Source of the DNA: Propioniciclava coleopterorum
GTDB taxonomy: Bacteria; Actinomycetota; Actinomycetes; Propionibacteriales; Propionibacteriaceae
NCBI RefSeq assembly: GCF_011393335.1
Contig: NZ_CP049865.1
Span: 3,552,722-3,616,721 of the forward strand
Length of the DNA: 64,000 nt
Direction of reading: 5' to 3'
Shown here: one piece after another, positions 7,695 to 23,265 of the stretch
How the letters are laid out: each line of letters opens with the position of its first letter
Numbering within the stretch: the first letter of the stretch is position 1
Made by a program: the position numbers and the translations under genes
Notes under the pieces: model-generated
What the model was told of the DNA's origin: nothing
The model's database searches: none
What the model saw: only the letters and a program-made list of their open reading frames with translations

Positions 7695-7729
7695 ACAAAA
7701 CGCCCCAGGCGGGGCGAGAGGAGACAACG

Positions 7730-9049
7730 ATGTCCCAAGTCCTCAACGCGTCCTTCTCGCGGCGCGGCCTGCTGGGCCTCGGCGCAGGGCTCGCAGTGGC
7801 CTCCACGCTGGCGGGCTGCGCCGGCGCAAGCACCTCCGGTGGCGGCGACGTCACGTTCTTCTCCACGCAGTTCGCCCCCGTCGAGGAGAAGCAGCGGTTC
7901 GAGAAGATCCTCACCGAGTACGTCAAGGACGTGAAGGTGGGCTTCAACGCCCTCCCCTCCGCCGCGGACTTCAACACCCAACTCAAGTCCCAGGTGGACG
8001 CCAAGAAGGTCTCCATCGGTGTCGCCGCCGCGATCCACGGCGACCTCGCCCCGCTCGGGGACTACCTCGACAACGTCGACGATCTCGTGGCGGACGCCAA
8101 GGCGGCGGGGATCACCGACGATCTGCTCACACTCGGCAAGATGGGGACGGCACAGCAGAAGTACATCCCCTGGATGCAGGCCTCCTACGTCGTCTGCGTG
8201 AACAAGAAGGCGCTCGAATGGCTCCCCTCGGGCGCCGACGTCAACGCCCTGACCTACGACCAGTTCCTGCAGTGGGCAGTCGACGCCAACAAGGCCAACG
8301 GCAAGCCCGTCTTCGGATTCCCCGCCGGCCCGAAGGGGTTGTACCACCGCTTCTTCCAGGGCTACCTGCTCCCCTCCTTCACCGGCGGTGTGGTGTCACG
8401 GTGGACCTCGGACGACGCGGTCAAGGGCTGGACCTGGATGCAGGAGTTCTGGAAGAACTGCAACCCGGCCTCGACCAACTACGAGTTCATGCAGGAGCCG
8501 CTCGCCCGCGGCGAGGTTCTGGTCGCCTGGGATCACGTGGCTCGACTGGTCGCGGCCCCCAAGGACAAGCCCGAGGACTGGATCATGGTCCCGGCACCCA
8601 TCGGCGACAAGGGCCTGGGCTACATGCTCATCGTCGCCGGCATGGCCGTCCCGAAGGGCGGCGACAAGGCACAGGCCGCCAAGGTCATCAAGGCGCTGTC
8701 GGCCCCGGCGGCCCAGGTCGAACTCCTCCGTCAGAACGCCTTCTTCCCGGTCGTCAAGGCGGATCTCCCGACCGACCTTCCCGGCCCGATCAAGCTGGCC
8801 GCCGAGGCCATCGAGAAGCAGGCCACGTCGCCCAAGGCGCTGCTCGCCCTGCCGCCGGTCGGCCTGGGTGCCAAGGACGGCGAGTTCGGCCAGGTCTTCA
8901 AGGACGTCTTCCGCGAGACCTGCCTGCAGGGAGCTGATCCCAAGGCCACGATCACCAAGTACGCGACGAACCTGGAGACGATCCTGGCCGGGGCGAAGGT
9001 TCCGTGCTGGGCGCCGGATCCGGCGGCCGACGTCTGCAAGGTGGGCTGA
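7730..9049 (+). CDS. ABC transporter sugar-binding lipoprotein
   Basis: A 439-residue extracellular solute-binding protein (MalE-like, family 1). The N-terminus has twin arginines (SRRGLLGLG) followed by a lipobox LAGC with Cys30, so it is probably exported through Tat or Sec and anchored by lipid. It delivers its ligand to the permeases that follow. It is the first gene of the 13-gene operon, preceded by GAGAGGAG. Its stop overlaps the next start as ATGA-type. By operon content the ligand is likely a small glycoside or oligosaccharide; E. coli YcjN is the positional counterpart. Confidence 0.9.
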   Translation: MSQVLNASFSRRGLLGLGAGLAVASTLAGCAGASTSGGGDVTFFSTQFAPVEEKQRFEKILTEYVKDVKVGFNALPSAADFNTQLKSQVDAKKVSIGVAAAIHGDLAPLGDYLDNVDDLVADAKAAGITDDLLTLGKMGTAQQKYIPWMQASYVVCVNKKALEWLPSGADVNALTYDQFLQWAVDANKANGKPVFGFPAGPKGLYHRFFQGYLLPSFTGGVVSRWTSDDAVKGWTWMQEFWKNCNPASTNYEFMQEPLARGEVLVAWDHVARLVAAPKDKPEDWIMVPAPIGDKGLGYMLIVAGMAVPKGGDKAQAAKVIKALSAPAAQVELLRQNAFFPVVKADLPTDLPGPIKLAAEAIEKQATSPKALLALPPVGLGAKDGEFGQVFKDVFRETCLQGADPKATITKYATNLETILAGAKVPCWAPDPAADVCKVG

Positions 9050-9942
9050 TGGTCGAGGCCACCGGCCCGGCCGTGGTCGCCCCGTCCCGGCGACCACGGC
9101 GCCTCTCGCCGGCCTTCTGGCTGATCCTGCCGTCGATCATCCTGATGCTGCTGCTGTTCGCCTACCCGATGTTCGTCGGCATCCGAGCGGCGTTCGTCGA
9201 GGGTGACGGCGGAGGATTCACGATGGCGAACTGGGCGCGGATGGTCAACGACCCCCAGTTCTGGCCGGCGGTGCGCAACACTGTGCTGCTGATCGTGGTC
9301 ATCATCCCGTTGCAGTTCCTCTTCGCCATGATCATGGCGTTGTTGCTGCAGGCCAAACCGCGCGGGAGCGCCGTCTACTTCTACCTGTGGGCGATCCCCC
9401 TGGCGGTCTCCGATCTGGCGGCGGGCCTGGTGTGGCTGTCCATCTTCTCCGACCAGGGTTACCTCAACTCGGTCCTGGTCGATCTCGGCCTGCAGCCGTT
9501 CGCCTGGCTGAGCTACCAGAATCCCCAGACGCAGTTCCTCGCCGTGACCCTGGCCGAGCTCTGGCGCGCGACCTCCCTGGTGCTGGTGATCGTCGTGTCG
9601 GGCATGCAGGGCATCCCCAAGGACTACGACGAGGCGGCCGCGGTCTTCGGGGCGAACTACTGGCAGCGACTGTGGCAGGTCACCATGCCGCTGCTTCGTC
9701 CCAGCCTCCAGGTGGCCCTCATCCTGCGCACGATCCTCGCCTTCCAGACCTTCGCGGTCGCCCAGGCGCTGACCGGGGAGAGTTTCCCCCTGCTGGTCGG
9801 AGAGACCTACCGGTGGTACTCCGCCCTCAGCAATCCGAACGTCGCTTCGGCGTACGCCTTGGTGATCATGGCCGTATCCATGGTCACCGCGGTGATCTAC
9901 CTTCGCGCCCTGCGCGACGAGAGCAGGCAGGTGAAGCGATGA
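9049..9942 (+). CDS. ABC sugar permease (MalF/UgpA type)
   Basis: A 297-residue inner-membrane protein with six predicted helices; the first is residues 20-45 (FWLILPSIILMLLLFAYP). The EAA loop is DEAAAVFGANYWQRLWQVTMP, which contacts the ATPase. The ATG at 9049 overlaps the stop of the binding-protein gene by one base. It forms the transport channel with the next gene product. Confidence 0.93.
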   Translation: MVEATGPAVVAPSRRPRRLSPAFWLILPSIILMLLLFAYPMFVGIRAAFVEGDGGGFTMANWARMVNDPQFWPAVRNTVLLIVVIIPLQFLFAMIMALLLQAKPRGSAVYFYLWAIPLAVSDLAAGLVWLSIFSDQGYLNSVLVDLGLQPFAWLSYQNPQTQFLAVTLAELWRATSLVLVIVVSGMQGIPKDYDEAAAVFGANYWQRLWQVTMPLLRPSLQVALILRTILAFQTFAVAQALTGESFPLLVGETYRWYSALSNPNVASAYALVIMAVSMVTAVIYLRALRDESRQVKR

Positions 9943-10808
9943 CCGCTCCGACTTCGACCCCGCCCCGTGCCGCCGTGCCGGTCGACTACGCGCCGCTGCG
10001 CGCCCACCGCCGCAACCGCGCGCTCATCCAGGTGGGCTGCGTACTGATCAGCCTGTTCATGGCCGTCCCGATCTACTTGATCGCCGTCGCGTCCTTCAGC
10101 ACGCGCGAAGGGCTCAACCAGTTCCCGCAGCCCCTGTGGCCCAAGAACTTCGGCACCGAGACGATGGCCACGTTCCTGCAGTCGACCGGCATCGTGGGTG
10201 GCCTGATCAACTCCCTCTACGTGGGGGTCGGCACGCTGGCCTTCAGCTCGCTCATCGGCGCCCCGGCCGGGTATGCCATCGCCAGGTTCGCCTTCCGCGG
10301 CAAGGACCCCTACCAGCTGTTCCTCCTGTTCACCCGGGCGCTGCCGATCGTGGTGCTGTCGGTGCCGCTGGCCGGCATCTTCCTGCAGGTCGGCATCTAC
10401 GACTCACCGTTGGCCGTGATCCTGCTCCACACCGCGCTGGCTCTCCCGACGACGATCCTGATCACCTCGAGCGTGTTCCTGGCGGTGCCCGTGGACGCGG
10501 AAGAGGCCGCCCGGATCTTCGGCTGTACCCCCGTGGGCGCCTTCGTGCGGGTCGTGTTGCCACTGGCGCTCCCCGGGATGGCGGCGGCGTCCATCTTCAC
10601 CTTCGTCATGAGCTGGAACGAGGTGCTGGGCGCCACGATCCTCACATTCAGCCAACGGACGCTGCCCGCCCAGGTCCTCAGTTCGCTGTCGGACAGCCCA
10701 CTCGCCTTCCGGTTCGCGGGCGGTCTCGTCCTGGTGATCCCGGCGCTCATCTTCATCGCGCTGATGCGCAAGTACCTGCTCAACATGTGGGGGACGACGA
10801 TCCGATGA
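9939..10808 (+). CDS. ABC sugar permease (MalG/UgpE type)
   Basis: A 289-residue inner-membrane protein with six predicted helices and an EAA loop (DAEEAARIFGCTPVGAFVRV). The ATG overlaps the preceding permease stop by 4 nt (ATGA). It is the second half of the heterodimeric channel. The matching genes in the E. coli ycj locus are ycjO and ycjP. Confidence 0.93.
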   Translation: MTAPTSTPPRAAVPVDYAPLRAHRRNRALIQVGCVLISLFMAVPIYLIAVASFSTREGLNQFPQPLWPKNFGTETMATFLQSTGIVGGLINSLYVGVGTLAFSSLIGAPAGYAIARFAFRGKDPYQLFLLFTRALPIVVLSVPLAGIFLQVGIYDSPLAVILLHTALALPTTILITSSVFLAVPVDAEEAARIFGCTPVGAFVRVVLPLALPGMAAASIFTFVMSWNEVLGATILTFSQRTLPAQVLSSLSDSPLAFRFAGGLVLVIPALIFIALMRKYLLNMWGTTIR

Positions 10809-10835
10809 CCCACGCATCCGAACGAGGGAACCTCC

Positions 10836-11912
10836 ATGGCTGACATCCAGATCAACAACCTCGTCAAGGTCTACCCGGGCAGCACCGAGCGGGCCAACGA
10901 CGACGTGTCCATGACGATCGCCGACGGGCAGTTCATGGTGCTGCTGGGCCCGTCGGGCTGCGGCAAGACCACGCTGCTGCGTCAGATCGCCGGTCTCGAA
11001 CTGCCCACCTCGGGCTCGATCGCGATCGGTGGCCGCGACGTCACGTACATGCCGGTGCATCAACGCAACCTGTCCATGGTGTTCCAGAGCTACGCCGTGT
11101 TCCCGCACCGCCGCGTCCGACACAACATCGCCTTCCCGCTGAAGACGAAGAAACTGCCGCAGGCGGAGATCGACAAGAAGGTGGCGTGGGCGGCCGACCT
11201 GCTGCAGCTCACCCCCTACCTCGACCGATTCCCCGCTCAGCTGTCGGGCGGTCAGCGGCAGCGCGTCGCGGTCGCGCGCGCCATCGTCGTGGACGCCGAC
11301 GTGCTCCTGATGGACGAGCCGCTGTCCAACCTGGACGCACTCCTGCGGCTCAGCTTCCGCTCCGAGCTGAAGCGGATCGTGGAGCAGTTGGGCACCACGA
11401 CGGTCTACGTCACCCACGACCAGTCCGAGGCGTTGTCCCTGGGCGACCAGGTCGCGGTGATGCGCAGCGGCAAGGTGAGCCAGCTCGCTCCGCCCCTGGA
11501 CATCTACGACCACCCCTCCGACACCTTCGTGGGTGGCTTCATCGGCTCGCCGCCGATGAACTTCCTCGACGGCCAGGCCACCGAGACCGGCATCGACATC
11601 GGCGGCCACACCGTCGCGGCGCCGGCGGGCCTGCCGCGCGGCAAGGTCCGCGTCGGCATCCGTGCCGAGGCCATCGACGTGGCGCCCCACGGGACCCCGG
11701 GGACGGTCCCCGCACAGGTGCTCGTGGTCGAGCCCCTGGGCGCGTCCACGCTGTTGAGCGTGGCGATCGGCGAACATCAGCTGAAGGTGCAGGCGGACCC
11801 CGACATCAGCGTCAAGACCGGCGACACGGTCTCGCTGCGCCTGGCGGAGAAGGCGATCCGGCTCTTCGACCACGAGACCAGGCTGGCCTGGCAGGCGCAG
11901 GCGGTCCGGTGA
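10836..11912 (+). CDS. ABC sugar-import ATPase (MalK/UgpC type)
   Basis: A 358-residue cytosolic ATPase. Walker A is GPSGCGKT (38-45), the signature LSGGQRQRVA (about 135), Walker B VLLMDEPLSNLDA and the switch His is in VTHD. The C-terminal third is the TOBE/OB regulatory domain of the MalK group. A 27-nt gap with GAGGGAAC separates it from the permease gene. Having its own ATPase makes the importer self-sufficient. The counterpart in the E. coli ycj locus is ycjV. Confidence 0.94.
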   Translation: MADIQINNLVKVYPGSTERANDDVSMTIADGQFMVLLGPSGCGKTTLLRQIAGLELPTSGSIAIGGRDVTYMPVHQRNLSMVFQSYAVFPHRRVRHNIAFPLKTKKLPQAEIDKKVAWAADLLQLTPYLDRFPAQLSGGQRQRVAVARAIVVDADVLLMDEPLSNLDALLRLSFRSELKRIVEQLGTTTVYVTHDQSEALSLGDQVAVMRSGKVSQLAPPLDIYDHPSDTFVGGFIGSPPMNFLDGQATETGIDIGGHTVAAPAGLPRGKVRVGIRAEAIDVAPHGTPGTVPAQVLVVEPLGASTLLSVAIGEHQLKVQADPDISVKTGDTVSLRLAEKAIRLFDHETRLAWQAQAVR

Positions 11913-13228
11913 GCGCCGATCTCGCCCGCGCGGCCGCCGACGTGCTGCGCGCCAACGACACGGGCACCATGGTGACCGCCGCGCCTCACCTCTACCCCCA
12001 CCAGTGGTCGTGGGACGCGGCGTTCGTGTCGGTGGGGCTGGCGCACCTGTCGGTGGCCCGCGCCATCGTCGAGTGGGACACCATCTTCGGGGCGCAGTGG
12101 GCCACCGGCATGCTCCCCCACATCGTGTTCGCCGACGAGCCCGACTACTTCCCCGGGTTCGGGGTCTGGGGCACCGAGATCGCCGCCGCCCGTCCCGACG
12201 GGGTGGAGTCGTCGGGCATCTGCCAGCCTCCGGTGCACGCCCTGTGCATCGAGCAACTGGTCGCGATCGGCCGGGCCCAGGGCGGGGAGGCCGCGGAGCG
12301 CGCAGACGCCTTCATGGCCGACGCCGTACCGCGGCTGGCCCGCTGGCACGCCTGGATGAGCCGCGCCCGTGACCGCGAGGGCATCGGGCTGGTGGAGATC
12401 CACCACGGCTGGGAGTCCGGCATGGACAACTCGCCCCGGTTCGACCCGTTCTACGAACGGATCGAGGTCGCCACCCCCAAGGCGCTGCCGCGCACGGACC
12501 TGAAGTACGCCGACGCGTCCGAGCGGCCCTCCGACCGGGAGTACCAGCGCTACATCCATCTGATCGACCAGATGATCGCGGTGGAGTTCGAGGACGACCG
12601 CATCCCCGCCGTGATCGACTTCCGCTGCGGGGATGTGTTCATGACCGCCAGCCTGGCCGCCTCCGCAGAGGCGCTGGCCAGGATGGCCGACGAGACCGGT
12701 GACGCCGACCTGGCCGCCACCGAGCGGGCCCGCGCTGAGCACGCCCGGACGGCCGTGCTGGCCTCGGTCGACCCGACGACGGGATTGTGCCGTGACTACG
12801 ACTACCACGCGGGCCACCACACCGACGTCGCCTCGATCGCCGGTTTCTCGGCCCTGATCTGCGGTGGTGACGACGCCGTGGTGGCCCGGCAGCGCGCGAT
12901 CCTGACCGGCCCGCAGTGGATGGGCCACCCCGACAACCGCTACCCGCTGCCACCCAGCATCAGCCTGGACGACCCTGCCTGTCGGCCGCGCGAGTACTGG
13001 CGCGGGCCGGTGTGGCCCATCATGAACTGGTTGTTCGCGCACTGCGCGCTGCAACAAGGCGACACGGCGCTCGCGTCCGGGCTGCGGGAGGCGGGCCTGG
13101 CCCAGTTGGCCGACGAGGAGTTCGGGGAGTACTACGAGCCGCGCACCGGGGAACCGCTCGGCAGCCACCAGCAGTCCTGGAGCGCGATGGCCGCCCTGGA
13201 CTGGCTCACCGCGGACCGGTGGCGATGA
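11909..13228 (+). CDS. GH63 hydrolase, glucosylglycerate/mannosylglycerate hydrolase-like
   Basis: A 439-residue (alpha/alpha)6 glycosidase. Length and motifs match the small bacterial GH63 group that hydrolyses glucosylglycerate or mannosylglycerate. YPHQWSWDAAF contains Asp36. ESGMDNSPRFD contains the general-acid candidate Asp173. EYYEPRTG, with Glu407 or Glu410, holds the base candidate. There is no signal peptide, so it acts on imported substrate. The GTG overlaps the ATPase stop (GTGA) and its own stop overlaps the phosphorylase start (ATGA). Exact substrate is inferred, not proven; other small alpha-glycosides are possible. Confidence 0.82.
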   Translation: MSADLARAAADVLRANDTGTMVTAAPHLYPHQWSWDAAFVSVGLAHLSVARAIVEWDTIFGAQWATGMLPHIVFADEPDYFPGFGVWGTEIAAARPDGVESSGICQPPVHALCIEQLVAIGRAQGGEAAERADAFMADAVPRLARWHAWMSRARDREGIGLVEIHHGWESGMDNSPRFDPFYERIEVATPKALPRTDLKYADASERPSDREYQRYIHLIDQMIAVEFEDDRIPAVIDFRCGDVFMTASLAASAEALARMADETGDADLAATERARAEHARTAVLASVDPTTGLCRDYDYHAGHHTDVASIAGFSALICGGDDAVVARQRAILTGPQWMGHPDNRYPLPPSISLDDPACRPREYWRGPVWPIMNWLFAHCALQQGDTALASGLREAGLAQLADEEFGEYYEPRTGEPLGSHQQSWSAMAALDWLTADRWR

Positions 13229-14901
13229 GCACCCTGGCCGAGGATCTGGCGCTGCTGTACCCCAGCTGCGCCGACGAGGTGGGCGCCGCCCTGGACGCGG
13301 TGCTGGCCCGGCACGCCGAGGCGCTGCGCCCCGACGGCCGGCGCCGCACCTGGACCCAGCGCGACGCGATCCTGATCACCTACGCCGACTCCCTGTCGGC
13401 GCCCGGGCAGGCACCGCTGGCCACCCTGGCCGACATCCTGCCCCGGCTCACCGACGGCACCATCCCGACCGTGCACCTCCTGCCGTTCTACCCCTGGACC
13501 TCCGACGACGGCTTCTCCGTGGTGGACTACCTGGCGGTCGATCCAGCCGTCGGCACGTGGCACGACGTGGCGCACCTGCGCCGCCAGGTGGAACTGATGT
13601 TCGACGCCGTCATCAACCACGTCTCAGCGTCCTCGCCGTGGTTCGCCGGCTTCCTGGCCGACGACGAGCACCGCGACTGGTTCCTGGTGGTCGACGAGGA
13701 CGCCGACACCAGCAGTATCGTGCGGCCCCGGACCCTGCCGCTGTTGACCGGGTTCGACACCGCCCGTGGCCGCGAGCACGTCTGGACGACGTTCAGCGCC
13801 GATCAGGTCGACCTCAACTACGCCGAACCGGCGGTGCTGCTGGCCGTGCTGGACGTGGTGCTCACCTACGTGCGCCGTGGCGCCTCGGTGATCCGGCTCG
13901 ACGCGGTCACCTACCTGTGGAAGGAACTCGGCACCAGCGGCGTCCACCTGCCGCAGACGCACGCGGTGATCAGGGTGCTGCGCGCCGCCCTGGACGCGGT
14001 CGCGCCCGACGTCACGCTCATCACCGAGACCAACGTCCCCCACGCCGAGAACGTCTCCTACTTCGGCGACGGCCACGACGAGGCGCAACTGGTCTACAAC
14101 TTCGCGCTGCCGCCGCTGGTGCTGCACAGCTTCGTCGCCGGCGACGCGTCCGCGCTCTCGGCCTGGGCGGCCGGGCTGACGACGCCCTCGCAGGAGACGA
14201 GCTTCTTCAACTTCCTGGCCAGCCACGACGGCGTCGGCGTCCGGGGCGCGGAGGGCATCCTGGCTGCGGCCGACCTGACGGCGCTCGCCGACCGCGTCCA
14301 CGCCCACGGTGGCCACGTCAGCTACCGGGCGGTGGAGGACGGCGAGCGGGTGCCCTACGAGCTGAACATCAACTACTTCGACGCGCTGTCCGACCCGGCG
14401 GGCGACGAGCCCCTCGCCACGCAGGTGGCGCGGTTCCTGACCGCTCAGTCGATCATGGCGACGCTGCCCGGCGTGCCGGGCATCTACCTCCACAGCCTGC
14501 TCGGCTCCCGCGGCTGGCCCGCGGGCGTGGCGCTGACCGGCGCCAACCGCAGCATCAACCGCGAGAAGCTGGACCGCGACACCCTGCTGGCCGAGTTGTC
14601 CCACCCGGACGGCCGACGCGCCCGCGTCCTGCGCGGATACCAGCGGCTGCTGAGGGTCCGCTCGGGTCAGGCCGCGTTCGACCCGCGCGCGTCCGCCGCG
14701 GTGATCGACCTGGGGCCCGGCGCGTTCGCGCTGCTGCGCGGCAGCGGCCCCGAGGCCGTGCTGGCGGTGCACAACGTCACCGCCGAGCCGCTGCCGCTGC
14801 CCGCGGCGGGACACGACCTGCTGACCGACGCCGAGGTGGCGGCCGTGCCACCGTTCGGCACCGTGTGGCTGAACGGGGGTGCGCCGTGGGCCGCGTCCTG
14901 A
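13225..14901 (+). CDS. GH13_18 glycoside phosphorylase, glucosylglycerate phosphorylase-like
   Basis: A 558-residue member of the sucrose-phosphorylase subfamily. Catalytic residues are D226 (VIRLDAVTYLWKELGTS), E268 (LITETNVPHAENVSYFGDGH) and D335 (NFLASHDG). The WKELGTS...LPQTH and ETNVPHAENVSYFGDGHDEAQ stretches look like the glucosylglycerate-phosphorylase branch (E. coli YcjM) rather than true sucrose phosphorylases. The expected reaction is glucosyl-X plus phosphate giving glucose-1-phosphate plus X. It is cytosolic. It lies directly after the GH63 gene (ATGA overlap), so a hydrolytic and a phosphorolytic enzyme for related substrates are made together. Confidence 0.85.
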   Translation: MSTLAEDLALLYPSCADEVGAALDAVLARHAEALRPDGRRRTWTQRDAILITYADSLSAPGQAPLATLADILPRLTDGTIPTVHLLPFYPWTSDDGFSVVDYLAVDPAVGTWHDVAHLRRQVELMFDAVINHVSASSPWFAGFLADDEHRDWFLVVDEDADTSSIVRPRTLPLLTGFDTARGREHVWTTFSADQVDLNYAEPAVLLAVLDVVLTYVRRGASVIRLDAVTYLWKELGTSGVHLPQTHAVIRVLRAALDAVAPDVTLITETNVPHAENVSYFGDGHDEAQLVYNFALPPLVLHSFVAGDASALSAWAAGLTTPSQETSFFNFLASHDGVGVRGAEGILAAADLTALADRVHAHGGHVSYRAVEDGERVPYELNINYFDALSDPAGDEPLATQVARFLTAQSIMATLPGVPGIYLHSLLGSRGWPAGVALTGANRSINREKLDRDTLLAELSHPDGRRARVLRGYQRLLRVRSGQAAFDPRASAAVIDLGPGAFALLRGSGPEAVLAVHNVTAEPLPLPAAGHDLLTDAEVAAVPPFGTVWLNGGAPWAAS

Positions 14902-15929
14902 GGTTCGTCGCGCCGGGCGAGGTGGACGTCGTCGACGAGCCCGATCCCCCGCTGGCGGCCGGCCAGGTCCGCGTCGACACCCTGTTCTCGGGCATCTCGG
15001 CCGGCACCGAGTTGTCGGCGTACCGCGGCACCAACCCGTACCTGACCAGGCGCTGGGACGCCGAGGCGCACCTGTTCCTCGACGCGGACGCCGCGGGCCC
15101 GGCCTACCCACTGGTGGGCTGGGGCTACAGCGAGGTGGGGGTCGTCGTCGAGGCCGCGCCGGACGTCACGGCGGTCGCCGTCGGCGACACCGTCTGGGGC
15201 ATCTGGGGCCACCGCTCCCGCGCGGTGCTGCCGCAGGAGGCGTTGGCCGGGCACGTGGTGCCCGACGAAGTCGACCCGCGGGCGGCGACGTTCGTCCGCG
15301 TGGCGTCCGTGGCGCTCAACGGGGTGCTGAACACCCAGCTCGGCATCGGCTCGGTGGTCGGCGTCGTCGGCCTGGGCGTGATCGGGCTGCTCGCCACCCG
15401 GTTCGCGGTGCTGTCGGGCGCGACCGTGGTCGCGGTCGATCCCATCGCCGCCCGACGCGACCGGGCCGCTGCCTGGGGCGCGGCGCACACCTTCGCCCCC
15501 GGGGTGGGCCTGGCGGCCGACGTCCGCGACCTGACGCAGGGCCGCGGCGCCGACGTGGTGCTGGAGCTGTCCGGGTCGGCGCGCGCGCTGCACGAGGCCG
15601 TCCGGCTGGCCGGCCCGGAGGGCGTCGTGGTGGCGTCCGGCTTCTACCAGGGCGACGCCGAAGGGCTGCGGTTGGGCGAGGAGTTCCACCACAACCGGGT
15701 GCGGCTGCAGTCCAGCCAGATCGGCGCGGTACCGCCCCAACTGGCGGCACGCTGGACGCGCGACCGGCTCATCTTCGCCGCCGCGCAGCGCGTCCTGGCC
15801 GGCGATCCGGACGCCGCCGCCCTGGTCAGCGACACCTTCGGCCTCGACGAGGCAGCCGCCGCCTACGACCTGGTGGACCGGCGCGGGCACGAGGCGCTGC
15901 AGGTGCTGTTCAACTTCACCGGGAGCTGA
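14886..15929 (+). CDS. MDR-family NAD(P)-dependent dehydrogenase, zinc-less, YcjQ-like
   Basis: A 347-residue medium-chain dehydrogenase. The Rossmann fold is at about residues 155-185 (VVGVVGLGVIGLLATRFAV). The catalytic-zinc positions of alcohol dehydrogenase are absent: FSGISAGTELSAYRG replaces the Cys-containing motif and GWGYSEVG replaces GHE. No structural-zinc Cys cluster is present. The tail region EEFHHNRVRLQSSQ followed by RWTRDRL is like E. coli YcjQ, a guloside 3-dehydrogenase. GTG 14886 overlaps the phosphorylase by 16 nt. Likely oxidises or reduces a ring hydroxyl of a glycoside; which carbon is unknown. Confidence 0.8.
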   Translation: MGRVLRFVAPGEVDVVDEPDPPLAAGQVRVDTLFSGISAGTELSAYRGTNPYLTRRWDAEAHLFLDADAAGPAYPLVGWGYSEVGVVVEAAPDVTAVAVGDTVWGIWGHRSRAVLPQEALAGHVVPDEVDPRAATFVRVASVALNGVLNTQLGIGSVVGVVGLGVIGLLATRFAVLSGATVVAVDPIAARRDRAAAWGAAHTFAPGVGLAADVRDLTQGRGADVVLELSGSARALHEAVRLAGPEGVVVASGFYQGDAEGLRLGEEFHHNRVRLQSSQIGAVPPQLAARWTRDRLIFAAAQRVLAGDPDAAALVSDTFGLDEAAAAYDLVDRRGHEALQVLFNFTGS

Positions 15930-15930
15930 C

Positions 15931-16983
15931 GTGGACATCCCTGACCATCGCCCCCGTCTCCCGCGCCGCCCGCTCGGCATCGGGGTCCTGGGCTGCGGCA
16001 CCATCGCGCGCACCGCGCACCTGCCCGCCTACCGCGACCACGGCCTGCCCGTGGTCGGGGTGTGGAGCCGCTCGGGCGCCGCCGACGTGCCGGGCGCGTT
16101 CCCGCAGGTGGGCCGGGTCTACGCGAGCGCCGAGGAACTGCTGGCCGACCCGGCCGTCGAGGTGGTGGACCTGGCCGGGGTCGCGCACGGCCGCGTGGAC
16201 TGGATCGAACGCTGCGTGCGCGCCGGCAAGCACGTCCTGGCCCAGAAACCCCTGGTCACCGACCCGGCCGAGCTGGACCGGCTGCTGCCGATCCTGGACG
16301 CCGCGGCGGCCGCAGGACTGCGCGTCGCGGTGAACCAGAACGGCCGCTGGGCGCCGCCCTGGCGGCTGGCGACACTGCTGATCCGGGCGGGGGCCATCGG
16401 CGAGGTGGTCGGCGTGACGCACCTGCACGACAAGCCGCTGCCGCCGATCGTCGGCACCCCGTTCGACGACCTGGAGCACATGCTGGTCAGCGACTACCTG
16501 ATGCACTGGATCGACATCACCACCGCCTGGATGGGCCCCTCGTCCCGGGCCGCCGCGTGGGAGGCCCGCGTGCCGGGCCAGCCGGATCACGCCCAGAACC
16601 CCTGGTCGGCGACGGTGTCGCTGGCCACCGAGTCCGGCGCGACCGCGGTGCTGCGCGTCGTCGGGGAGGCCCGCGCGAGCGCCGGGGGCTGCCCGTTCTG
16701 GATCCACGGCACCACCGGCACGCTGCGCGGCAGCGTCCTGCTCGGCTCGGATCGGCTCAGCCTGGAGCGCGACGGACGGACCACCGACCACCCGCTGACC
16801 GGGCAGTGGTTCACCGACGGGTTCGCCGGCACGATGGCCGAGCTGATGTGCGCCGTCGAGGAGGACCGCGAACCCGAGAACGCCGCCCGCACGGTCGCGG
16901 ACTCCGTCGCGGCGATGCTGGCCGCGCTGGCGTCGGCGCGCGCCGGGGGCGTCCCCCAGCCGGTGCGGGCGGTGACACCGTGA
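15931..16983 (+). CDS. Gfo/Idh/MocA-family sugar dehydrogenase, YcjS-like
   Basis: A 350-residue oxidoreductase. The N-terminal Rossmann motif is GVLGCGTIARTAHLPAY (about residues 17-33). The family's EKP motif appears as AQKP (about residues 106-109), keeping the catalytic-lysine position. VNQNGRWAPPW follows. The C-terminal alpha/beta domain carries the substrate His-containing strand (DYLMHWIDITTAW). It starts 1 nt after the MDR gene. In the E. coli ycj pathway an MDR and a Gfo/Idh/MocA enzyme work as a pair through a 3-keto-glycoside, and the same pairing is likely here. Confidence 0.85.
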   Translation: MDIPDHRPRLPRRPLGIGVLGCGTIARTAHLPAYRDHGLPVVGVWSRSGAADVPGAFPQVGRVYASAEELLADPAVEVVDLAGVAHGRVDWIERCVRAGKHVLAQKPLVTDPAELDRLLPILDAAAAAGLRVAVNQNGRWAPPWRLATLLIRAGAIGEVVGVTHLHDKPLPPIVGTPFDDLEHMLVSDYLMHWIDITTAWMGPSSRAAAWEARVPGQPDHAQNPWSATVSLATESGATAVLRVVGEARASAGGCPFWIHGTTGTLRGSVLLGSDRLSLERDGRTTDHPLTGQWFTDGFAGTMAELMCAVEEDREPENAARTVADSVAAMLAALASARAGGVPQPVRAVTP

Positions 16984-18251
16984 TCGTCGACGATCTGCGG
17001 CTCGGCCCCCACGCACGGGTCTACGCCGAGGGCTGGCAGAGCTGGAGCGCGACGGGGTGGTCGGCCGCGTCCGCGTCCGGGCCGGCACCCCAGACCGAGT
17101 GGCAACGGCTGATGCGATTCCGGCCCGACTCCCCGCTGAGCAACACCGGGCGTCAAGGCGAGGGCCTCCTGCTGGTGGACCCGGGCGACGGCTCGCCGGT
17201 GCTGCGCTACGCGGGCGCCACGGACGAGGTGCCCAGCATCCGCACCACCCCCACGGAGGTTCCCGGCGGCACGACGCTGAGGATCGACGCGTCCGGGCCG
17301 GTGCGCCGCAGCGAGCATGCCGACGCCGCCGAGGCGCTGGCCGGCTTCGCGGACGCGGTGGCCGCCGAGCGCGACGTGCGCGTCCGGCCGGCCCCGCGGG
17401 TGTGGTGCTCGTGGTACCGCTACTTCGAGGACGTCACCGCCGCCGACATCGCCGAGAACCTCGCCGCGATCGACGCCGCCGGGCTCGAGGTCGAGGTGAT
17501 CCAGATCGACGACGGCTGGAGCCCCGGCCTGGGTGAGGGCGCGCGTCCGGACCCGGGGTTCGGCCACCTGCCCGGTCTGGTCACCGCCATCCGCGACTCC
17601 GGGCGGGCCGCAGGGCTGTGGCTGGCCCCGTTCCTGGTCGGCCGCGACACCACCCTGGCCCGCCGGCACCCCGACTGGCTCACCGGCCCGGCGGGCTACA
17701 ACTGGGGCCAGGATCTGGTCGGCCTCGACCTGACTCACCCAGGCGTCCGGGAGCACCTCGCCGACACCGTCGCGTGGGCGGTCGGGCTGGGGATCAGCTA
17801 CCTCAAGCTCGACTTCCTCTACGCCGGCGCGCTGCCCGGCCCCCGGCACAGCGGGGCCGCGCCGTTGGCGTCCTACCGCGACGGGCTGGCGCTGATCCGC
17901 GAGGCAGCCGGCCCCGACGCGTACCTGGTGGGGTGCGGCGCTCCGCTGCTGCCGTCGGTGGGGCTGGTGGACGCGATGCGCGTCTCCCCCGACACCTTCC
18001 ACGAGGGCGGTCAGGACGGCTCAGCCGGACTGCGCGGGGCCCCCAACGTTGCCGCCCGCACCTGGCAGGACGGCCGCTGGTGGGCCAACGACCCCGACTG
18101 CCTGGTGATGCGGCCCTCCTTCGTGCTGCGCGACGCGTGGGCGGAGGCCATCACCGGACGCGGGACGCTGCGCTCCTTCTCCGACCGGGTCGCCGACCTG
18201 GACGCCCACGGCCTGGCCGCCGTCCGCCGCCACCTGTCCCCGGCGCCGTGA
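16980..18251 (+). CDS. GH36-like (clan GH-D) alpha-glycosidase
   Basis: A 423-residue cytosolic glycosidase of the alpha-galactosidase/GH36 type. The catalytic barrel begins at about residue 140 (WCSWYRYFEDVT). It has IQIDDGW, the nucleophile Asp278 in YLKLDFLY and the acid/base candidate Asp338 in MRVSPDT. It is much shorter than standard GH36 enzymes (over 700 residues) because the large N-terminal beta-sandwich is reduced to about 130 residues beginning VYAEGWQSWSATGW. The GTG overlaps the preceding stop (GTGA). Could be an alpha-galactosidase or act on another alpha-glycoside; substrate unknown. Confidence 0.8.
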   Translation: MIVDDLRLGPHARVYAEGWQSWSATGWSAASASGPAPQTEWQRLMRFRPDSPLSNTGRQGEGLLLVDPGDGSPVLRYAGATDEVPSIRTTPTEVPGGTTLRIDASGPVRRSEHADAAEALAGFADAVAAERDVRVRPAPRVWCSWYRYFEDVTAADIAENLAAIDAAGLEVEVIQIDDGWSPGLGEGARPDPGFGHLPGLVTAIRDSGRAAGLWLAPFLVGRDTTLARRHPDWLTGPAGYNWGQDLVGLDLTHPGVREHLADTVAWAVGLGISYLKLDFLYAGALPGPRHSGAAPLASYRDGLALIREAAGPDAYLVGCGAPLLPSVGLVDAMRVSPDTFHEGGQDGSAGLRGAPNVAARTWQDGRWWANDPDCLVMRPSFVLRDAWAEAITGRGTLRSFSDRVADLDAHGLAAVRRHLSPAP

Positions 18252-19915
18252 TGCGCGCCGGGGACGCCCTCGAACCGGGCACCGCACTGCACCGCCGGTA
18301 CGAGAGCCTTCAGGCGGCCCCGCGCGGCCGACACGCCGCGCCGCCGCCGCCCGCCGGGCCGTTGCCCGAGGCGTCCGCGCTCCTCGGGCGGCTACCCGGG
18401 CCCTGGGTCGCCGGGCGACCCGACTACCGCGCCTGCTACGACTACGCGGTCGCGACGTTGCTGGGGTCACGCCGGGCGCCCCAGCCGGGCAGCGGCTTCG
18501 TCAGCCCGTTCCTGGACAGCGCGTTCAACGACAACGTGTTCTGGTGGGACTCCTGCTTCATCACCATGTTCGCTCGACTGCTGCACCCGTACGTGCCGGG
18601 CATCTGCTCGCTGGACAACTTCTACGCCCGCCAGTTCGACGACGGCGAGATCTGCCGCGAGATCAACGCCACCACCGGGCGCGACCTGCCGTGGTGGACC
18701 AACCTGGACGGCGGGCCGCTGTACTCGTTCTACGACCGCGCCTACGGCTACCGCTCGCTGACGTCGGCCGCCCCCGACCTGGACCTGGCCACCTGCCGCC
18801 GCCCGGATCTCGGCCGCGTGCCGGCCGCGCCGCCGCACCTCACGCTCGACGCGCTGAACCACCCCGTCGCGGCGTGGGCCGAGTGGCTCAGCTTCACCCA
18901 GACCGGCGACCTGGACCGGCTCGAACGCGTCCTGCCGGCGCTGGCCGCCTACCACGCAGCGCTCGAGGAGCACCTGGGTCACGCCGAGGGGCTCTACGTC
19001 TCGGACTGGGCCAGCATGGACAACTCGCCCCGCAACGCGCGGCTGGGCTTCGGCGTCGACACCGCCTGCGAGATGGTGCTGGACGCCCGGCACCTCCTCC
19101 AGATCGCCGCGGCGCTGCGGGCAGCCGGACGTCGCGCCGACCTGGACGACGCCGCGCTGGGGCGCCGCGCCGAGGCGACCGATGCGGCGATCAACGCGCT
19201 GATGTGGGACCCCGAGCGGGCCTTCTACGTCGACCTGGACGCCGACCGCGTGCGGATCGAGGTGCGGACCATCGCCGGATTCTGGCCGCTCATCGCGGGA
19301 GTGGCGCGCGGCGAGCGGGCCGACGCGCTGGTGGCCGCCCTGCTGGATCCCGCCGCGTTCGGTCGCCTCAACCCGGTGCCGTCGGTCGCCGCCGACGAGC
19401 CCGGCTACGTGCCCGAGGGCGGCTACTGGCGCGGCGGCACCTGGTCGCCGACCAACCAGATGGTGATCGCCGGGCTGGCCGCCGTCGGCCGTCACGACCT
19501 GGCCCGGGAGTTGGCCACCCGGCACCTGGACGCCGTGTGCCGGGTCCACGCAGACACCGGCACCATCTACGAGTACTCCTCCCCCGACCTGCTCAGCGCG
19601 GGCGCCAACGACCATCCGGCGTTCGTCGGCTGGTCGGGCATGGCGCCGATCGGCTTCCTGATCGAGCGGGTGATCGGGCTGCAGGCCGACGCCCCCACTG
19701 CGAGGCTGACGTGGCGGCTGCCCGCCGCCGGGCCCGACTGCGGCGTCGAGCGGTACTGGTTCGGCGGGATCACCGCGGACCTGGCGTTGCGTCATACCGA
19801 CCGGGAACGCGTCGTCGAGGTGACCGCGGACGGGCCGTTCACCCTGGAACTGGTCGGAGCCACCGGCACCAGCCGCCATGCGGTCACCGCCCGGCACCGG
19901 TTCGAGGCACCGTGA
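18251..19915 (+). CDS. (alpha/alpha)6 glycosidase, GH63/trehalase-like
   Basis: A 554-residue six-hairpin glycosidase distantly related to GH63 and GH37. NDNVFWWDSCFITMFARL lines the first helix pair, and DWASMDNSPRNARLGFG carries the candidate acid Asp257, mirroring ESGMDNSPR of the upstream GH63 enzyme. YWRGGTWSPTNQMVIAGL is the typical C-terminal barrel motif. There is no signal peptide. The start ATG overlaps the GH36-like stop by one base. It is the second (alpha/alpha)6 hydrolase in the operon but only remotely similar to the first, suggesting a different linkage or aglycone. Confidence 0.78.
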   Translation: MRAGDALEPGTALHRRYESLQAAPRGRHAAPPPPAGPLPEASALLGRLPGPWVAGRPDYRACYDYAVATLLGSRRAPQPGSGFVSPFLDSAFNDNVFWWDSCFITMFARLLHPYVPGICSLDNFYARQFDDGEICREINATTGRDLPWWTNLDGGPLYSFYDRAYGYRSLTSAAPDLDLATCRRPDLGRVPAAPPHLTLDALNHPVAAWAEWLSFTQTGDLDRLERVLPALAAYHAALEEHLGHAEGLYVSDWASMDNSPRNARLGFGVDTACEMVLDARHLLQIAAALRAAGRRADLDDAALGRRAEATDAAINALMWDPERAFYVDLDADRVRIEVRTIAGFWPLIAGVARGERADALVAALLDPAAFGRLNPVPSVAADEPGYVPEGGYWRGGTWSPTNQMVIAGLAAVGRHDLARELATRHLDAVCRVHADTGTIYEYSSPDLLSAGANDHPAFVGWSGMAPIGFLIERVIGLQADAPTARLTWRLPAAGPDCGVERYWFGGITADLALRHTDRERVVEVTADGPFTLELVGATGTSRHAVTARHRFEAP

Positions 19916-20538
19916 GCCCCGTCATCGTCGTCTACGGCGACAGCATCTCGTCCGGCAGCCACGGCGACGGCGGCTACCTCCCCGCCCTGGCCGAACTCGG
20001 CGAGGTGCGCAACCACGCGATCGGCGGCAGCCCGCTCGCCCCGACCGCTCCCGGTTCGCTGGTCGAGGTGCTGGCCGACCCGGCCCGACTCCACGCCGAC
20101 GCCGACGTCGCGGTGGTGTGGCACGGCTCCAACGACTGGTTCTGGGGCAGCCCGCTCGGCGACCCGGACGCCCCCGACCCCGACTCGTTCCGCGGCGCGC
20201 TGCGGCGCTGCCTGGCGATGCTGCGGGCAGCCGCTCCGGGCGTCGGCGTCCTGGCGCCGCTGCCGCTGCCGCGGTTCGAGGCCCCCGCGGGTGCCGCGGA
20301 GCCGGGCGACGCGCACCTGACCCCCAACCATGTCGGGGCCACCCTGGCCGACTACGCCGGCGTCCTCCGAGGGGAGGCCGACCGCCTCGGCTACCGGATC
20401 GTGGACCTCGCCGGCGCCGGCCTGAGCACCGCCACGCCGGAGCTGTACGAGGACAGGGTGCACCCCAACGCGGCGGGCTACGCGCGACTCGCCCCGTTGC
20501 TCGCCGCCGCCGTCACCGGCCTGCTGGCGGCGCCGTGA
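19912..20538 (+). CDS. SGNH/GDSL-family hydrolase
   Basis: A 208-residue cytosolic esterase-type hydrolase. Block I is VIVVYGDSISSG with nucleophile Ser11. Block III is WHGSNDWFWG. Block V is EDRVHPNAAGY with Asp181 and His184 completing the triad. The GTG overlaps the previous stop (GTGA) and its own stop overlaps the ROK kinase start. In a glycoside operon it most likely removes acetyl or another acyl group from the imported compound, implying the natural substrate is esterified. Confidence 0.85.
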   Translation: MSPVIVVYGDSISSGSHGDGGYLPALAELGEVRNHAIGGSPLAPTAPGSLVEVLADPARLHADADVAVVWHGSNDWFWGSPLGDPDAPDPDSFRGALRRCLAMLRAAAPGVGVLAPLPLPRFEAPAGAAEPGDAHLTPNHVGATLADYAGVLRGEADRLGYRIVDLAGAGLSTATPELYEDRVHPNAAGYARLAPLLAAAVTGLLAAP

Positions 20539-21419
20539 TCGCCGCGGTCGACCTGGGCGGCGGCACCATCCGGCTGGGGCTGCACGACGGGAACGGCTGG
20601 GTCGAGCGAGTGCGCCTGCCCAACACCGACCAGCCCGCCGACCTCGACGCCGCGGCGGCCCAGTTGACCCGCTGGCGCGCCGCACACGGCGCACCGACCC
20701 GGGTCGGGGTCGCGATCCCTGGCATCGTCACCGCGGACGGCACGGGGCTGGCCTCGGCGCACGGCAAGTACGCCCACCTGCGCGGCCGCGACCTGCGCGC
20801 CTGGGCCGCGGCCGCCGCCGGAGCCCCGGCGCGCGTCGAGAACGACGCCCGCGCCGCCCTGCTGGGCGAGGCCGCGGCCGGCGCCGCGCACGGCTGCCGG
20901 GACGCCGTCCTGCTGATCGTCGGCACCGGCATCGGTACCGCCGCCCTGGTCGACGGACACCTGGTTCGGGGCGCACACGGTCACGGCGGCGTCCTGGGCG
21001 GCCACGTGACCATCGACCTCGCCGGCGCCGCCTGTCCCTGCGGCAACCTCGGCTGCGCCGAGACGCTGGGCGGATCGTGGGCGCTGGCTGGGCTTGCGGC
21101 CACCCGGCCCGACTACGGGGCCTCGCCGCTGGCGTCCGGCCCCGTCGGGTTCCGCGAGGTGATCGCGGCCGCGGACGCGGGCGACCCGTGCGCGGCGGCG
21201 GTCCTGGACCGCGCCCTCGCGTCCTGGGCCGCGGTGCTGGTGACGCTGATCCACCTCTTCGACCCCGAGCGCGTCGTGCTGGCCGGCGGCCCGCTGTGCT
21301 CCGCGCCCGCGCTGGTCTCCGGGCTCCGCGGCCGCGTCGCCTCCCACCTGTGGTCGGGGATCGCCTGCCCCGACCTCGTCGTTTCCCCGCGCCCGAGGAG
21401 TCGGTGCTCCGCGGGCTGA
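20535..21419 (+). CDS. ROK-family sugar kinase, frameshifted C-terminus
   Basis: Sugar kinase without a DNA-binding domain. It starts directly with the ATP-binding motif AAVDLGGGTIRLGLHD, then has ENDARAALLGEA, GTGIGTAALVDG and the ROK zinc motif CPCGNLGCAETLGG. The frame given ends at 21419 with an abnormal tail. One extra base at the CCCC run 21385-21388 gives a normal ending (APEESVLRGLIQLASRAEQE) whose TGA at 21458-21460 overlaps the next ATG, as at most other junctions of this operon. Restored length is about 308 residues. With the ManA-like isomerase next door, mannose, fructose or glucose are plausible substrates. Confidence 0.85.
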   Translation: MIAAVDLGGGTIRLGLHDGNGWVERVRLPNTDQPADLDAAAAQLTRWRAAHGAPTRVGVAIPGIVTADGTGLASAHGKYAHLRGRDLRAWAAAAAGAPARVENDARAALLGEAAAGAAHGCRDAVLLIVGTGIGTAALVDGHLVRGAHGHGGVLGGHVTIDLAGAACPCGNLGCAETLGGSWALAGLAATRPDYGASPLASGPVGFREVIAAADAGDPCAAAVLDRALASWAAVLVTLIHLFDPERVVLAGGPLCSAPALVSGLRGRVASHLWSGIACPDLVVSPRPRSRCSAG

Positions 21420-21456
21420 TCCAGCTTGCCTCCCGAGCAGAACAGGAACCCGCGCC

Positions 21457-23199
21457 ATGACCGCGCCCCGGACGCCCGACTACGACCCGCACCCCGTGAT
21501 CGAGGTGCCCGGCACCGCCCTGCGGGGCGCCGACCTGTGGCACGCCCTCAACACCGACGCACGCGCCCGCGGCGGCGAGCGGCCCGTCATCGTGCTGGAC
21601 ACCTACCCCGCCACCGACACCCCCGGCCTCGTCGCGCAGGCCCTGGCCCACCTGCCGGGCTACACCGCGCTCGACGTCGAGGAGGCCGCCCTGCCCATCT
21701 CCGCGATCGACGCCCTGATCGGACGCCACCTCACCGACGACCGCGTGTTCGGCGTCCTGGCCCCGCATCGGCTCGCCGAGTTCTACGATCCCGACGCACT
21801 GGACGCGCTCACCACGTCCGTGGCCGCGGCGCCAGGACCGCTGCTGGTCCACGGCTGGGGCGCCGCCCTCGCCGCGCCGGCCCGCGCGGTGCTCGCCCTG
21901 GTCGACCTGGCCCGCTGGGAGATCCAGCAGCGTTACCGGGGCGGGACGCCGAACTGGCGCTGCCCGCGTCCCGAGGACGACGTGCTGCGGGCCTACAAGC
22001 GCGGCTTCTTCGTGGAGTGGCGCGTCGCGGACGCCCACAAGCGCGGCCTGTTCGACCGGCTCGACTGGGTGCTGGACGGCAACGCGTCCGAGCCGGTCGG
22101 GCTGTCCGGGGCCGACTTCCGGGCGGGCATGGCGTCTGCCGCTCGGCGTCCGTTCCGCCTGGTGCCGTACTTCGACCAGGGCGTGTGGGGTGGCCACTGG
22201 ATGCAGGAGAGGTTCGGGCTGCCGGCCGCGACCAACTACGCATGGTGCTTCGACTGCGTCCCCGAGGAGAACAGCATCGTGCTGCGGCTGACCGGCGGCG
22301 ACGTCGAACTGCCGGCCATCGACCTGGTGCTGTCCCAGCCCGACGCCCTGCTCGGACGCCGCACGCACGCCCGGTTCGGCGCCGAGTTCCCGATCCGGTT
22401 CGACTTCCTGGACACCATGGGCGGGCAGAACCTGTCCCTTCAGGTGCACCCCAGCACCGACTACATCCAGCGCACCTTCGGCATGCACTACACCCAGGAC
22501 GAGTCCTACTACCTGCTGGACGCCGCCCCGGGCGCACAGGTCTACCTCGGGCTGCGCGAGGACGCCGACCCCGAGGCGCTGCGCGACGCGCTCCGCCGCG
22601 CGGAGGCGGGAGCGCCGTTCGAGGCCGACGCGTTCGTCAACAGCTTCCCGGCCGCCAAGCACGACCACTTCCTGATCCCCGCCGGCACGGTGCACTGCTC
22701 AGGAGGGGACGCGATGGTCCTGGAGATCTCGGCGACCCCCTTCATCTTCACCTTCAAGATGTGGGACTGGGATCGGCTCGGCCTTGACGGCCGGCCACGG
22801 CCGGTTCACCTCGATCATGCGTTCGCGAACATCGACTGGTCGCGCCGCACCGCCTGGGTCGAGCGCGAACTCGTCGACCGGGTCGTCATCACGGAAGAGG
22901 GCGAGGGCTGGCGCCGCGAGGTGACGGGACTGCACGAGTTGGAGTTCATCGAGACCACCCGGACCTGGTTCACCGGCCCGATCGAGGACGACACCCATGG
23001 GACCGTGCATGTGCTCAACCTCGTGGAGGGGGGCCCGATCCTCCTGGAGAGCCCCACGGGCGCCTTCGCTCCGTTCGCCGTGCACTACGCCGAAACGTTC
23101 GTCGTCCCCGCCGCCGTGGGGCGCTACCGGGCCCGGCCCCTCGCCGAGGGTGCGCACGCCGTCCTCCGGGCGCACGTCCGCGGCACCGAGACGGACTGA
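21457..23199 (+). CDS. Large class I mannose-6-phosphate isomerase-like protein
   Basis: A 580-residue protein. The C-terminal part (about residues 215-580) is a cupin-type ManA domain: LVPYFDQGVWGGHWMQE, the zinc-site segment LSLQVHPSTDYIQ, QDESYYLLDA and FLIPAGTVHCSGG. The N-terminal 200 residues (RPVIVLDTYPATDTPGLVAQ) are extra compared with ordinary ManA (about 390 residues), and I do not recognise their role. As the last gene of the operon it would convert a phosphorylated hexose made by the ROK kinase to fructose-6-phosphate. The natural sugar could be something other than mannose. Confidence 0.78.
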   Translation: MTAPRTPDYDPHPVIEVPGTALRGADLWHALNTDARARGGERPVIVLDTYPATDTPGLVAQALAHLPGYTALDVEEAALPISAIDALIGRHLTDDRVFGVLAPHRLAEFYDPDALDALTTSVAAAPGPLLVHGWGAALAAPARAVLALVDLARWEIQQRYRGGTPNWRCPRPEDDVLRAYKRGFFVEWRVADAHKRGLFDRLDWVLDGNASEPVGLSGADFRAGMASAARRPFRLVPYFDQGVWGGHWMQERFGLPAATNYAWCFDCVPEENSIVLRLTGGDVELPAIDLVLSQPDALLGRRTHARFGAEFPIRFDFLDTMGGQNLSLQVHPSTDYIQRTFGMHYTQDESYYLLDAAPGAQVYLGLREDADPEALRDALRRAEAGAPFEADAFVNSFPAAKHDHFLIPAGTVHCSGGDAMVLEISATPFIFTFKMWDWDRLGLDGRPRPVHLDHAFANIDWSRRTAWVERELVDRVVITEEGEGWRREVTGLHELEFIETTRTWFTGPIEDDTHGTVHVLNLVEGGPILLESPTGAFAPFAVHYAETFVVPAAVGRYRARPLAEGAHAVLRAHVRGTETD

Positions 23200-23253
23200 C
23201 GCCGGTCGTGCTGCCGGGGTGCCGAACGCACGACACTGCGAGCAGTTCGGGTC

Positions 23254-23259: not shown

Positions 23260-23265
23260 TCCCGC

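Follow-up and report, generated by a model that had tools for sequence, protein, structure and literature searches.

A predicted variant of ycj-type, glucosylglycerate-linked glycoside catabolism encoded by a 13-gene block of Propioniciclava coleopterorum

Few breakdown routes are described for the compatible solute glucosylglycerate, namely hydrolysis by the glucosylglycerate hydrolase GgH in mycobacteria (PMC6608630) and cleavage by the glucosylglycerate phosphorylase GGaP (PMC7178133). In Escherichia coli such a phosphorylase (YcjM) belongs to the ycj cluster, for which RefSeq further names YcjQ as D-guloside 3-dehydrogenase, YcjR as 3-dehydro-D-guloside 4-epimerase, YcjS as D-glucoside 3-dehydrogenase and YcjT as kojibiose phosphorylase. 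The Ycj functions used here follow the RefSeq names, PMC11543891 and PMC7178133, together with general background. According to PMC11543891, a ligand screen of YcjN found no ligand and the substrate imported by the E. coli cluster is still open. Here, we analyzed a stretch of 64,000 nucleotides (hereafter the window, to which all positions refer) of the Propioniciclava coleopterorum genome (contig NZ_CP049865.1, positions 3,552,722 to 3,616,721), in which 13 genes form a co-directional block at 7730-23199. Protein and gene-neighborhood comparisons indicate that this block is a real operon and a variant of the ycj-type, glucosylglycerate-linked catabolism.

The glucosylglycerate enzymes and their partners

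Five consecutive genes of the block encode the predicted glucosylglycerate enzymes and their partners:

11909-13228, + strand: predicted glucosylglycerate hydrolase GgH, GH63/MGH1-like (NF047898, 595.7 bits, cut-off 550)
13225-14901, + strand: predicted GH13_18 glucosylglycerate phosphorylase GGaP, YcjM-type (41% identity to YcjM over 531 aa; TETN and loop-A Glu)
14886-15929, + strand: YcjQ-type MDR dehydrogenase (29% identity to YcjQ over 345 aa, full length)
15931-16983, + strand: Gfo/Idh/MocA dehydrogenase (hereafter Gfo), distant from YcjS (PF01408)
16980-18251, + strand: short GH36 alpha-galactosidase-like hydrolase, 423 aa (180 bits to Thermotoga maritima GalA, 1zy9)

The assignment of GgH, with glucosylglycerate hydrolysis as the predicted activity, is well supported by sequence. 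The whole protein passes the cut-off of the NCBI equivalog model NF047898, it matches the solved M. hassiacum chain (MhGgH) along its length with 401 bits, and all 19 checked active-site residues of MhGgH are identical, including the catalytic Asp182 and Glu419 and the glycerate contacts Tyr36, Trp40, Tyr88, Arg216 and Tyr375 (residues and roles as given in PMC6608630). Its setting in an uptake operon differs from that of the mycobacterial enzyme, which the same source describes in the recovery from nitrogen starvation. The assignment of the GH13_18 gene as a GGaP, a predicted phosphorylase, is likewise well supported, as a (T/S)ETN motif at strand 5 and a Glu in loop A are marks of GGaP (PMC7178133) and the protein shares both (TETN; Glu within PYELN) with the GH13_18 GGaPs of Meiothermus, Spirochaeta and E. 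coli. The same signatures ruled out a sucrose or glucosylglycerol phosphorylase. Unlike the enzymes of those three organisms, the window GGaP is co-encoded with a GgH, and neither a glucosylglycerate synthase nor a phosphatase is present in the operon.

The remaining three genes (hereafter the trio) retain the conserved positions of their families. The MDR triplet G40-T41-E42 is invariant in 26 sequences, YcjQ included, and falls in the region that presumably contains the Cys ligand of zinc MDRs, while K106, D188 and H192 of Gfo, presumably the catalytic residues of that family, are invariant in 26 sequences, YcjS included. Ten of the 11 checked active-site positions of T. maritima GalA are identical in the GH36 protein, among them D278 and D338, which we take to be the nucleophile and the acid/base (the roles, -1 subsite residues and numbering of GalA are assumed throughout). 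Alpha-galactosidase activity is predicted on these grounds. With 423 aa, the protein is shorter than the GalA chains in the PDB (564-575 aa).

An ABC importer, a YcjM-type phosphorylase, a YcjQ-type MDR dehydrogenase and a Gfo/Idh/MocA dehydrogenase are common to the window and the E. coli ycj cluster. The window operon lacks the YcjR epimerase, the GH65 kojibiose phosphorylase and the beta-phosphoglucomutase of E. coli, and adds GH36, GgH, a second MGH1-like hydrolase (MGH2), an SGNH esterase, a ROK kinase and a ManA-like protein (MANA). Among the window genes, YcjR, YcjT and YcjU had chance matches only (best E 0.006), Gfo reached 21% identity to YcjS over 159 aa (E 0.001) and does not qualify as its orthologue, and the binding protein had no significant match to YcjN. 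On the evidence of YcjS, YcjR, YcjT, YcjU and the binding protein, orthology of the block to the ycj cluster was therefore rejected. The sequence-only reading had called it ycj-like, which remains apt for the pathway logic, the phosphorylase, the MDR dehydrogenase and, distantly, the permeases, but not for these five components.

Recurrence in other genomes

Relatives of the GH36 gene were collected from 84,980 species genomes by a non-exhaustive scan seeded with six short GH36 peptide patterns, and the trio was counted as present when relatives of MDR, Gfo and GH36 each scored above 90 bits. The scan yielded 67 loci in named genomes, and the three occurred together in 29 of them. A GGaP gene accompanied the trio in 24 of the 29 and a GgH-type gene in the other five; none had both, whereas the window does. 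Where GH36 shares at least 49% identity with that of the window, MDR was present in 30/30 loci, Gfo in 29/30 (it is missing from L022) and either GGaP or a GgH-type gene in 30/30, a genomic setting which separates this GH36 from GalA. These loci belong to Microbacterium, Nocardioides, Cellulomonas, Naasia, Microlunatus, Ornithinimicrobium, Knoellia, Georgenia, Arthrobacter and unclassified actinobacteria. The gene comparisons indicate that the trio is widespread in actinobacteria and that GGaP and GgH-type genes are mutually exclusive in the relatives of the window cluster. Two further loci were found, L138 with the trio and a GGaP identical to that of L016 (perhaps not independent), and L154, of the trio plus hydrolase type, which was reached via the Gfo gene rather than GH36. 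At E ≤ 1e-70 the Gfo gene itself was present in three of 378 sampled genomes of the class, the window's own included.

The usual actinobacterial order is a divergent repressor, a solute-binding protein (SBP), two permeases (TM), MDR, Gfo, GH36 and GGaP. On a Pseudalkalibacillus plasmid the order is SBP-TM-TM-MDR-epimerase-Gfo-GH65-bPGM-GGaP (bPGM, beta-phosphoglucomutase); compared with it, the actinobacterial SBP-TM-TM-MDR-Gfo-GH36-GGaP clusters have GH36 at the place of GH65 and bPGM, and the epimerase is missing. A Citrobacter plasmid cluster has the E. coli gene order, and no GH36 relatives were detected in the three YcjR/GH65 clusters checked (E. coli, Pseudalkalibacillus and Citrobacter, two of them enterobacterial). 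A glycerate kinase gene directly follows GGaP in six of the 24 GGaP-type loci (Pfam-checked for L002 only). Together with GgH and GGaP themselves, this fits the earlier guess of a glucosylglycerate-type compatible solute, putatively acylated and of several residues, that would be processed by redox conversion and phosphorolysis.

The clusters with a GgH-type gene tend to resemble the window in their accessory genes. A second MGH1-like hydrolase is present in L018, L023, L026, L034 and L154 (not in L022 and L029), an SGNH gene in L018, L023, L026 and L034, and a ManA-like gene in L023, L026 and L034, whereas the examined DNA of the 24 GGaP-type loci contained none of the three. The window holds counterparts of all three plus a GGaP. 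Judged by sequence, its operon looks as if the functions of the related clusters had been assembled separately: MGH2 and SGNH share their families with the Arthrobacter-type genes without being clear orthologues, the binding protein is unrelated to the YcjN-type protein of the related clusters (relatives absent from all 24 GGaP-type and all six GgH-type loci), the permeases show 23-32% identity to those of the related clusters, and the GGaP comes from a different lineage. The combination had been described as new from the sequence alone. This is upheld for the whole 13-gene set, which was not met in the searched genomes, and it fails for the core, as a search for co-occurring families returned the trio with a glucosylglycerate-cleaving enzyme in 29 of the 67 GH36 loci, and the second MGH1-like hydrolase, SGNH and ManA-like genes recur in Arthrobacter-type clusters. 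No report on an MDR-Gfo-GH36 set with a glucosylglycerate enzyme was found among the literature matches listed (titles and abstract openings, with subscription journals mostly outside the coverage).

The nearest relatives of the window GGaP (best identity 51%) include the phosphorylase of L136, and in a tree it sits on a long branch, with an actinobacterial group of uncharacterised proteins as its sister. TETN and the loop-A Glu are kept in 41/41 phosphorylase sequences, so that the motifs alone do not separate GGaP groups. MR_MLE, 2-hydroxyacid dehydrogenase and amidohydrolase genes precede the phosphorylase of L136 and separate it from a permease, and L136-type phosphorylases may use another glucosyl hydroxy acid as substrate. 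An octopine-dehydrogenase-like gene also lies near the L136 phosphorylase, and L135 (G142) and L137 (G212) have genes sized like those of L136 (G231), the only one of the three searched with Pfam. Elsewhere, a YcjM-type 'sugar phosphorylase' adjoins a HAD hydrolase and a glycosyl transferase in L143 (Pseudoalteromonas) and L142 (Qingshengfaniella), which resembles a glucosylglycerate-synthesis context. L139 (G186) is a reduced cluster with only a repressor, a YcjN-type binding protein, two permeases and GGaP, and is a candidate for a simple glucosylglycerate uptake system.

Extent of the block and its other genes

The Propioniciclava genome is a single contig of 3.67 Mb, and the window has a G+C content of 72.5%. 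The 13 open reading frames at 7730-23199 share the + strand and have no internal stops, which confirms the unbroken block, and profile searches agreed with the families first assigned to them. The junction gaps are, in order, -1, -4, +27, -4, -4, -16, +1, -4, -1, -4, -4 and +37 nt; thus, ten of the 12 junctions overlap or lie at most 1 nt apart, not 11 as had been counted. Such packing is compatible with an operon, but it is ordinary in this window and not striking alone, because 20 of the 35 other same-strand junctions (as predicted by the gene caller) are equally tight. A functional unit is better supported by the repeated co-occurrence of these genes in other genomes. Downstream of the block lies a mycothiol S-transferase gene. 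Operators and terminators in the gaps were sought and rejected: no inverted repeat ≥ 8 nt was found in 7590-7740, and promoter-like (0 vs. 0.4 expected) and terminator-like sites (4 vs. 2.9 expected) in 6400-23800 were at chance level; one weak stem resembling a terminator lies at 7701-7716 (minus strand). A cobalamin riboswitch (Rfam RF00174, 105.8 bits) was detected at 37260-37441 on the minus strand.

The other genes of the block and the adjoining regulator are:

6450-7610, - strand: REG, ROK-family repressor with a winged HTH (helix-turn-helix), probable regulator, divergent from the block (Pfam ROK and HTH)
7730-9049, + strand: putative solute-binding protein, by position and a lipoprotein-like start
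9049-9942, + strand: ABC permease 1 (PF00528; 27% identity to YcjO)
9939-10808, + strand: ABC permease 2 (PF00528; 29% identity to YcjP)
10836-11912, + strand: MalK/UgpC-type ABC ATPase (PF00005, TOBE_2, OB_MalK; 42% identity to YcjV over 326 aa)
18251-19915, + strand: MGH2, second MGH1-like (alpha/alpha)6 hydrolase, beta-rich towards the C-terminus, 554 aa (PF22422, 117.8 bits)
19912-20538, + strand: SGNH/GDSL esterase, presumed deacylase (PF13472, 72.3 bits)
20535-21419, + strand: ROK sugar kinase with an apparent late frameshift at the C-terminus (PF00480, 140.5 bits; frame comparison with three relatives)
21457-23199, + strand: MANA, large mannose-6-phosphate-isomerase-like protein with an extra N-terminal domain of ~230 aa (1qwr, 48.3 bits)

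Relatives of REG (31-36% identity) adjoin most of the related clusters, mostly divergently. The binding protein matched no Pfam or NCBIfam family and had no significant PDB match (best E 0.26). As MalK/UgpC-type ATPases are generic, the match to YcjV carries little weight. In MGH2 both catalytic carboxylate columns are kept, and the glycerate-binding motif fails to align; at E ≤ 1e-20, only its own copy was found in 394 genomes of the class (at most three candidates scored per genome). Its predicted structure is poor (mean pLDDT 56.4) and matches the GH63 mannosylglycerate hydrolase as well as other (alpha/alpha)6 enzymes. The fold assignment was rejected as evidence, since such a model only repeats the Pfam result. 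The last ~20 codons of the ROK gene look frameshifted (21380-21460), with C-terminal residues that match three ROK kinases in another frame; this alternative frame extends to the start of the last gene, the ROK frame ends at 21419 ahead of the +37 gap, and relatives have intact copies. It looks like a late frameshift, either real or a sequencing error.

MANA shares with the class I ManA of Bacillus subtilis (1qwr) a sequence match over 230-455, the fold (AlphaFold model, mean pLDDT 79.9; Foldseek E 3.3e-19) and conserved putative metal-site residues (H331, E349 and H413, invariant in 11 sequences and presumably the metal ligands). It differs from it by the N-terminal domain of ~230 residues, for which no match was found, and by a TIGR00218 score of 27 bits (cut-off 116.2), which ruled out a standard ManA. 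Elsewhere in the genome there is one ManA-type match above the cut-off (168.9 bits) and, at a second place, a match in two pieces (114.3 and 87.5 bits) that are each below it; MANA is probably a specialised copy, because of these other ManA-type matches. Relatives of MANA at E ≤ 1e-20 were present in 13 of 394 genomes of the class, its own included, and the neighborhoods of ten were fetched. A ROK gene, judged by similarity to the window ROK, adjoins the MANA relative in three (L115, L116 and L118), and in L119 the neighboring gene is a ROK by Pfam. The neighbors of ~1040-1060 aa were GH38 in all four loci tested (L114, L117, L119 and L120); similar-sized ones occur in L121-L123, outside this Pfam-tested set, while no Pfam family matched the ~710-aa neighbors tested in L115 and L118. 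GH38 enzymes are alpha-mannosidases. The proximity of MANA relatives to ROK and GH38 genes suggests that ROK and MANA handle mannose. The 580-aa MANA-like family is mostly found near ABC importers.

Proposed route and alternative explanations

On balance, we consider it somewhat probable that the block is an operon for breaking down a larger glycoside based on 2-O-alpha-glucosyl-D-glycerate and that the whole route proposed here applies. The ABC importer would take up the glycoside, a step supported by the complete set of predicted importer genes, and the SGNH enzyme, judged by its family, may then remove an acyl group. MDR and Gfo would reconfigure the outer sugar by oxidation and re-reduction, after which GH36 would hydrolyse it off. 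The glucosylglycerate thus exposed would be split into glucose 1-phosphate and glycerate by GGaP or into glucose and glycerate by GgH, a predicted step which is well supported. The ROK kinase would phosphorylate free hexoses, the ManA-like enzyme would isomerise mannose, if present, MGH2 probably releases a further sugar (a mannose branch), and glycerate would pass to a glycerate kinase, which is encoded elsewhere in the Propioniciclava genome. We infer the order of the steps, the C3 chemistry set out below, the outer sugar, the deacylation and the mannose branch.

For the reconfiguration, C3 epimerisation would be the likeliest chemistry. D-gulose is the C3 epimer of D-galactose, and oxidation followed by re-reduction at C3 would therefore make a guloside a galactoside suited to GH36: the YcjQ-type MDR would oxidise an alpha-D-guloside to the 3-ketone, Gfo would reduce it to an alpha-D-galactoside, and GH36 would remove galactose. 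Such chemistry would predict that the C4 epimerase is lost and the glycosidase changed at the same time, as seen in the actinobacterial clusters, and we infer that neither YcjR nor the GH65 enzyme YcjT, both part of the E. coli route, would be required. A shortened, galactosidase-type guloside pathway in actinobacteria, in which two dehydrogenases with opposite C3 face preference turn an alpha-D-gulosyl into an alpha-D-galactosyl residue on glucosylglycerate for removal by a dedicated GH36, is possible but doubtful.

Several observations weigh against the proposed route or parts of it. The MDR shares only 29% identity with YcjQ, and Gfo is no YcjS orthologue, so that the oxidised carbon is not fixed by homology, and the need of the operon for both GgH and GGaP has no explanation. 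The MDR and Gfo pair is missing from 37 of the 67 GH36 loci (GH36 ≤ 46% identical, several on short contigs, and among them L038 with a Gfo match at 33%). It speaks for the route that relatives of YcjT and YcjU occurred in none of the 67 loci and of YcjR in one (L005, at the far locus end, outside the cluster), but this absence covers only ~10 kb on each side and less at contig ends. The window GGaP groups with phosphorylases of other neighborhoods and not with those of the trio clusters (the branches are long and the placement unsure), and its SGNH is not detectably orthologous to the Arthrobacter-type one (E 0.15). Of the six genomes of the class that have GGaP (of 384, the window's own included), four lack the trio (G142, G186, G212 and G231), while the window's own and G216 have it. 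In G186, L139 has GGaP but no trio, and its YcjN-type binding protein shares 75% identity with the one encoded in a trio cluster; the trio may therefore serve an alternative substrate or widen the range instead of being a compulsory step.

The last point also agrees with dehydrogenases that interconvert at C2 or C4 (mannosyl- to glucosylglycerate, galacto to gluco), so that one phosphorylase would serve several glycerate glycosides and GH36 would be a parallel galactoside route. MhGgH also acts on mannosylglycerate (PMC6608630), but YcjQ, the sole named MDR relative compared, carries the name of a 3-dehydrogenase, albeit at 29% identity, and we regard this explanation as distinctly unlikely. 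Alternatively, no epimerisation may occur at all: Gfo would make a 3-keto glycoside that is cleaved by elimination or by easier hydrolysis, and MDR would re-reduce the released keto sugar. Dehydrogenases of the described 3-keto elimination routes are reportedly of the Gfo type, and the PDB relatives of the window Gfo include a sugar 3-ketoreductase and DgpA. Such oxidation/elimination routes are described for levoglucosan and plant glycosides in PMC10628242 and PMC7676230. The conserved partner GH36, however, keeps its catalytic aspartates. None of the 13 genes belongs to a Pfam family that we take to be that of a known eliminase, and this course appears unlikely.

A composite of stacked modules without a single substrate, in which GgH and GGaP would act on glucosylglycerate, the trio on an alpha-galactoside and the ROK and ManA-like proteins on mannose, would accommodate an SBP and a GGaP that are not of the trio-cluster lineages. 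No close GH36 was found in the 12 congeners searched (best E 3.9e-14), which suggests recent assembly or rarity and fits the same picture. Yet GGaP or a GgH-type gene accompanies the trio in 29/29 loci and the hydrolase-type clusters repeatedly add the MGH1-like hydrolase, SGNH and ManA-like genes, and we give this composite as little credence as the C2 or C4 interconversion. Still less probable is a phosphorylase acting on the glucoside of another 2-hydroxy acid, with an operon substrate not based on glucosylglycerate: the neighborhood of L136, among the nearest GGaP relatives, with its 2-hydroxyacid dehydrogenase, MR_MLE and amidohydrolase genes speaks for it, while the same operon holds a GgH with all checked glycerate contacts.

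The exclusion between GGaP and GgH in related clusters, as opposed to their joint presence in the window, is directly testable. A parallel cluster whose glycosidase differs also limits what the E. coli ycj cluster can import: should the two clusters act on substrates of a single kind, these would have to be convertible to an alpha-glucoside (for GH65) and to an alpha-galactoside (for GH36) on glucosylglycerate. The shortened pathway, if true, would mean that gulosyl-glucosylglycerates, or epimers close to them, actually serve as nutrients in nature.

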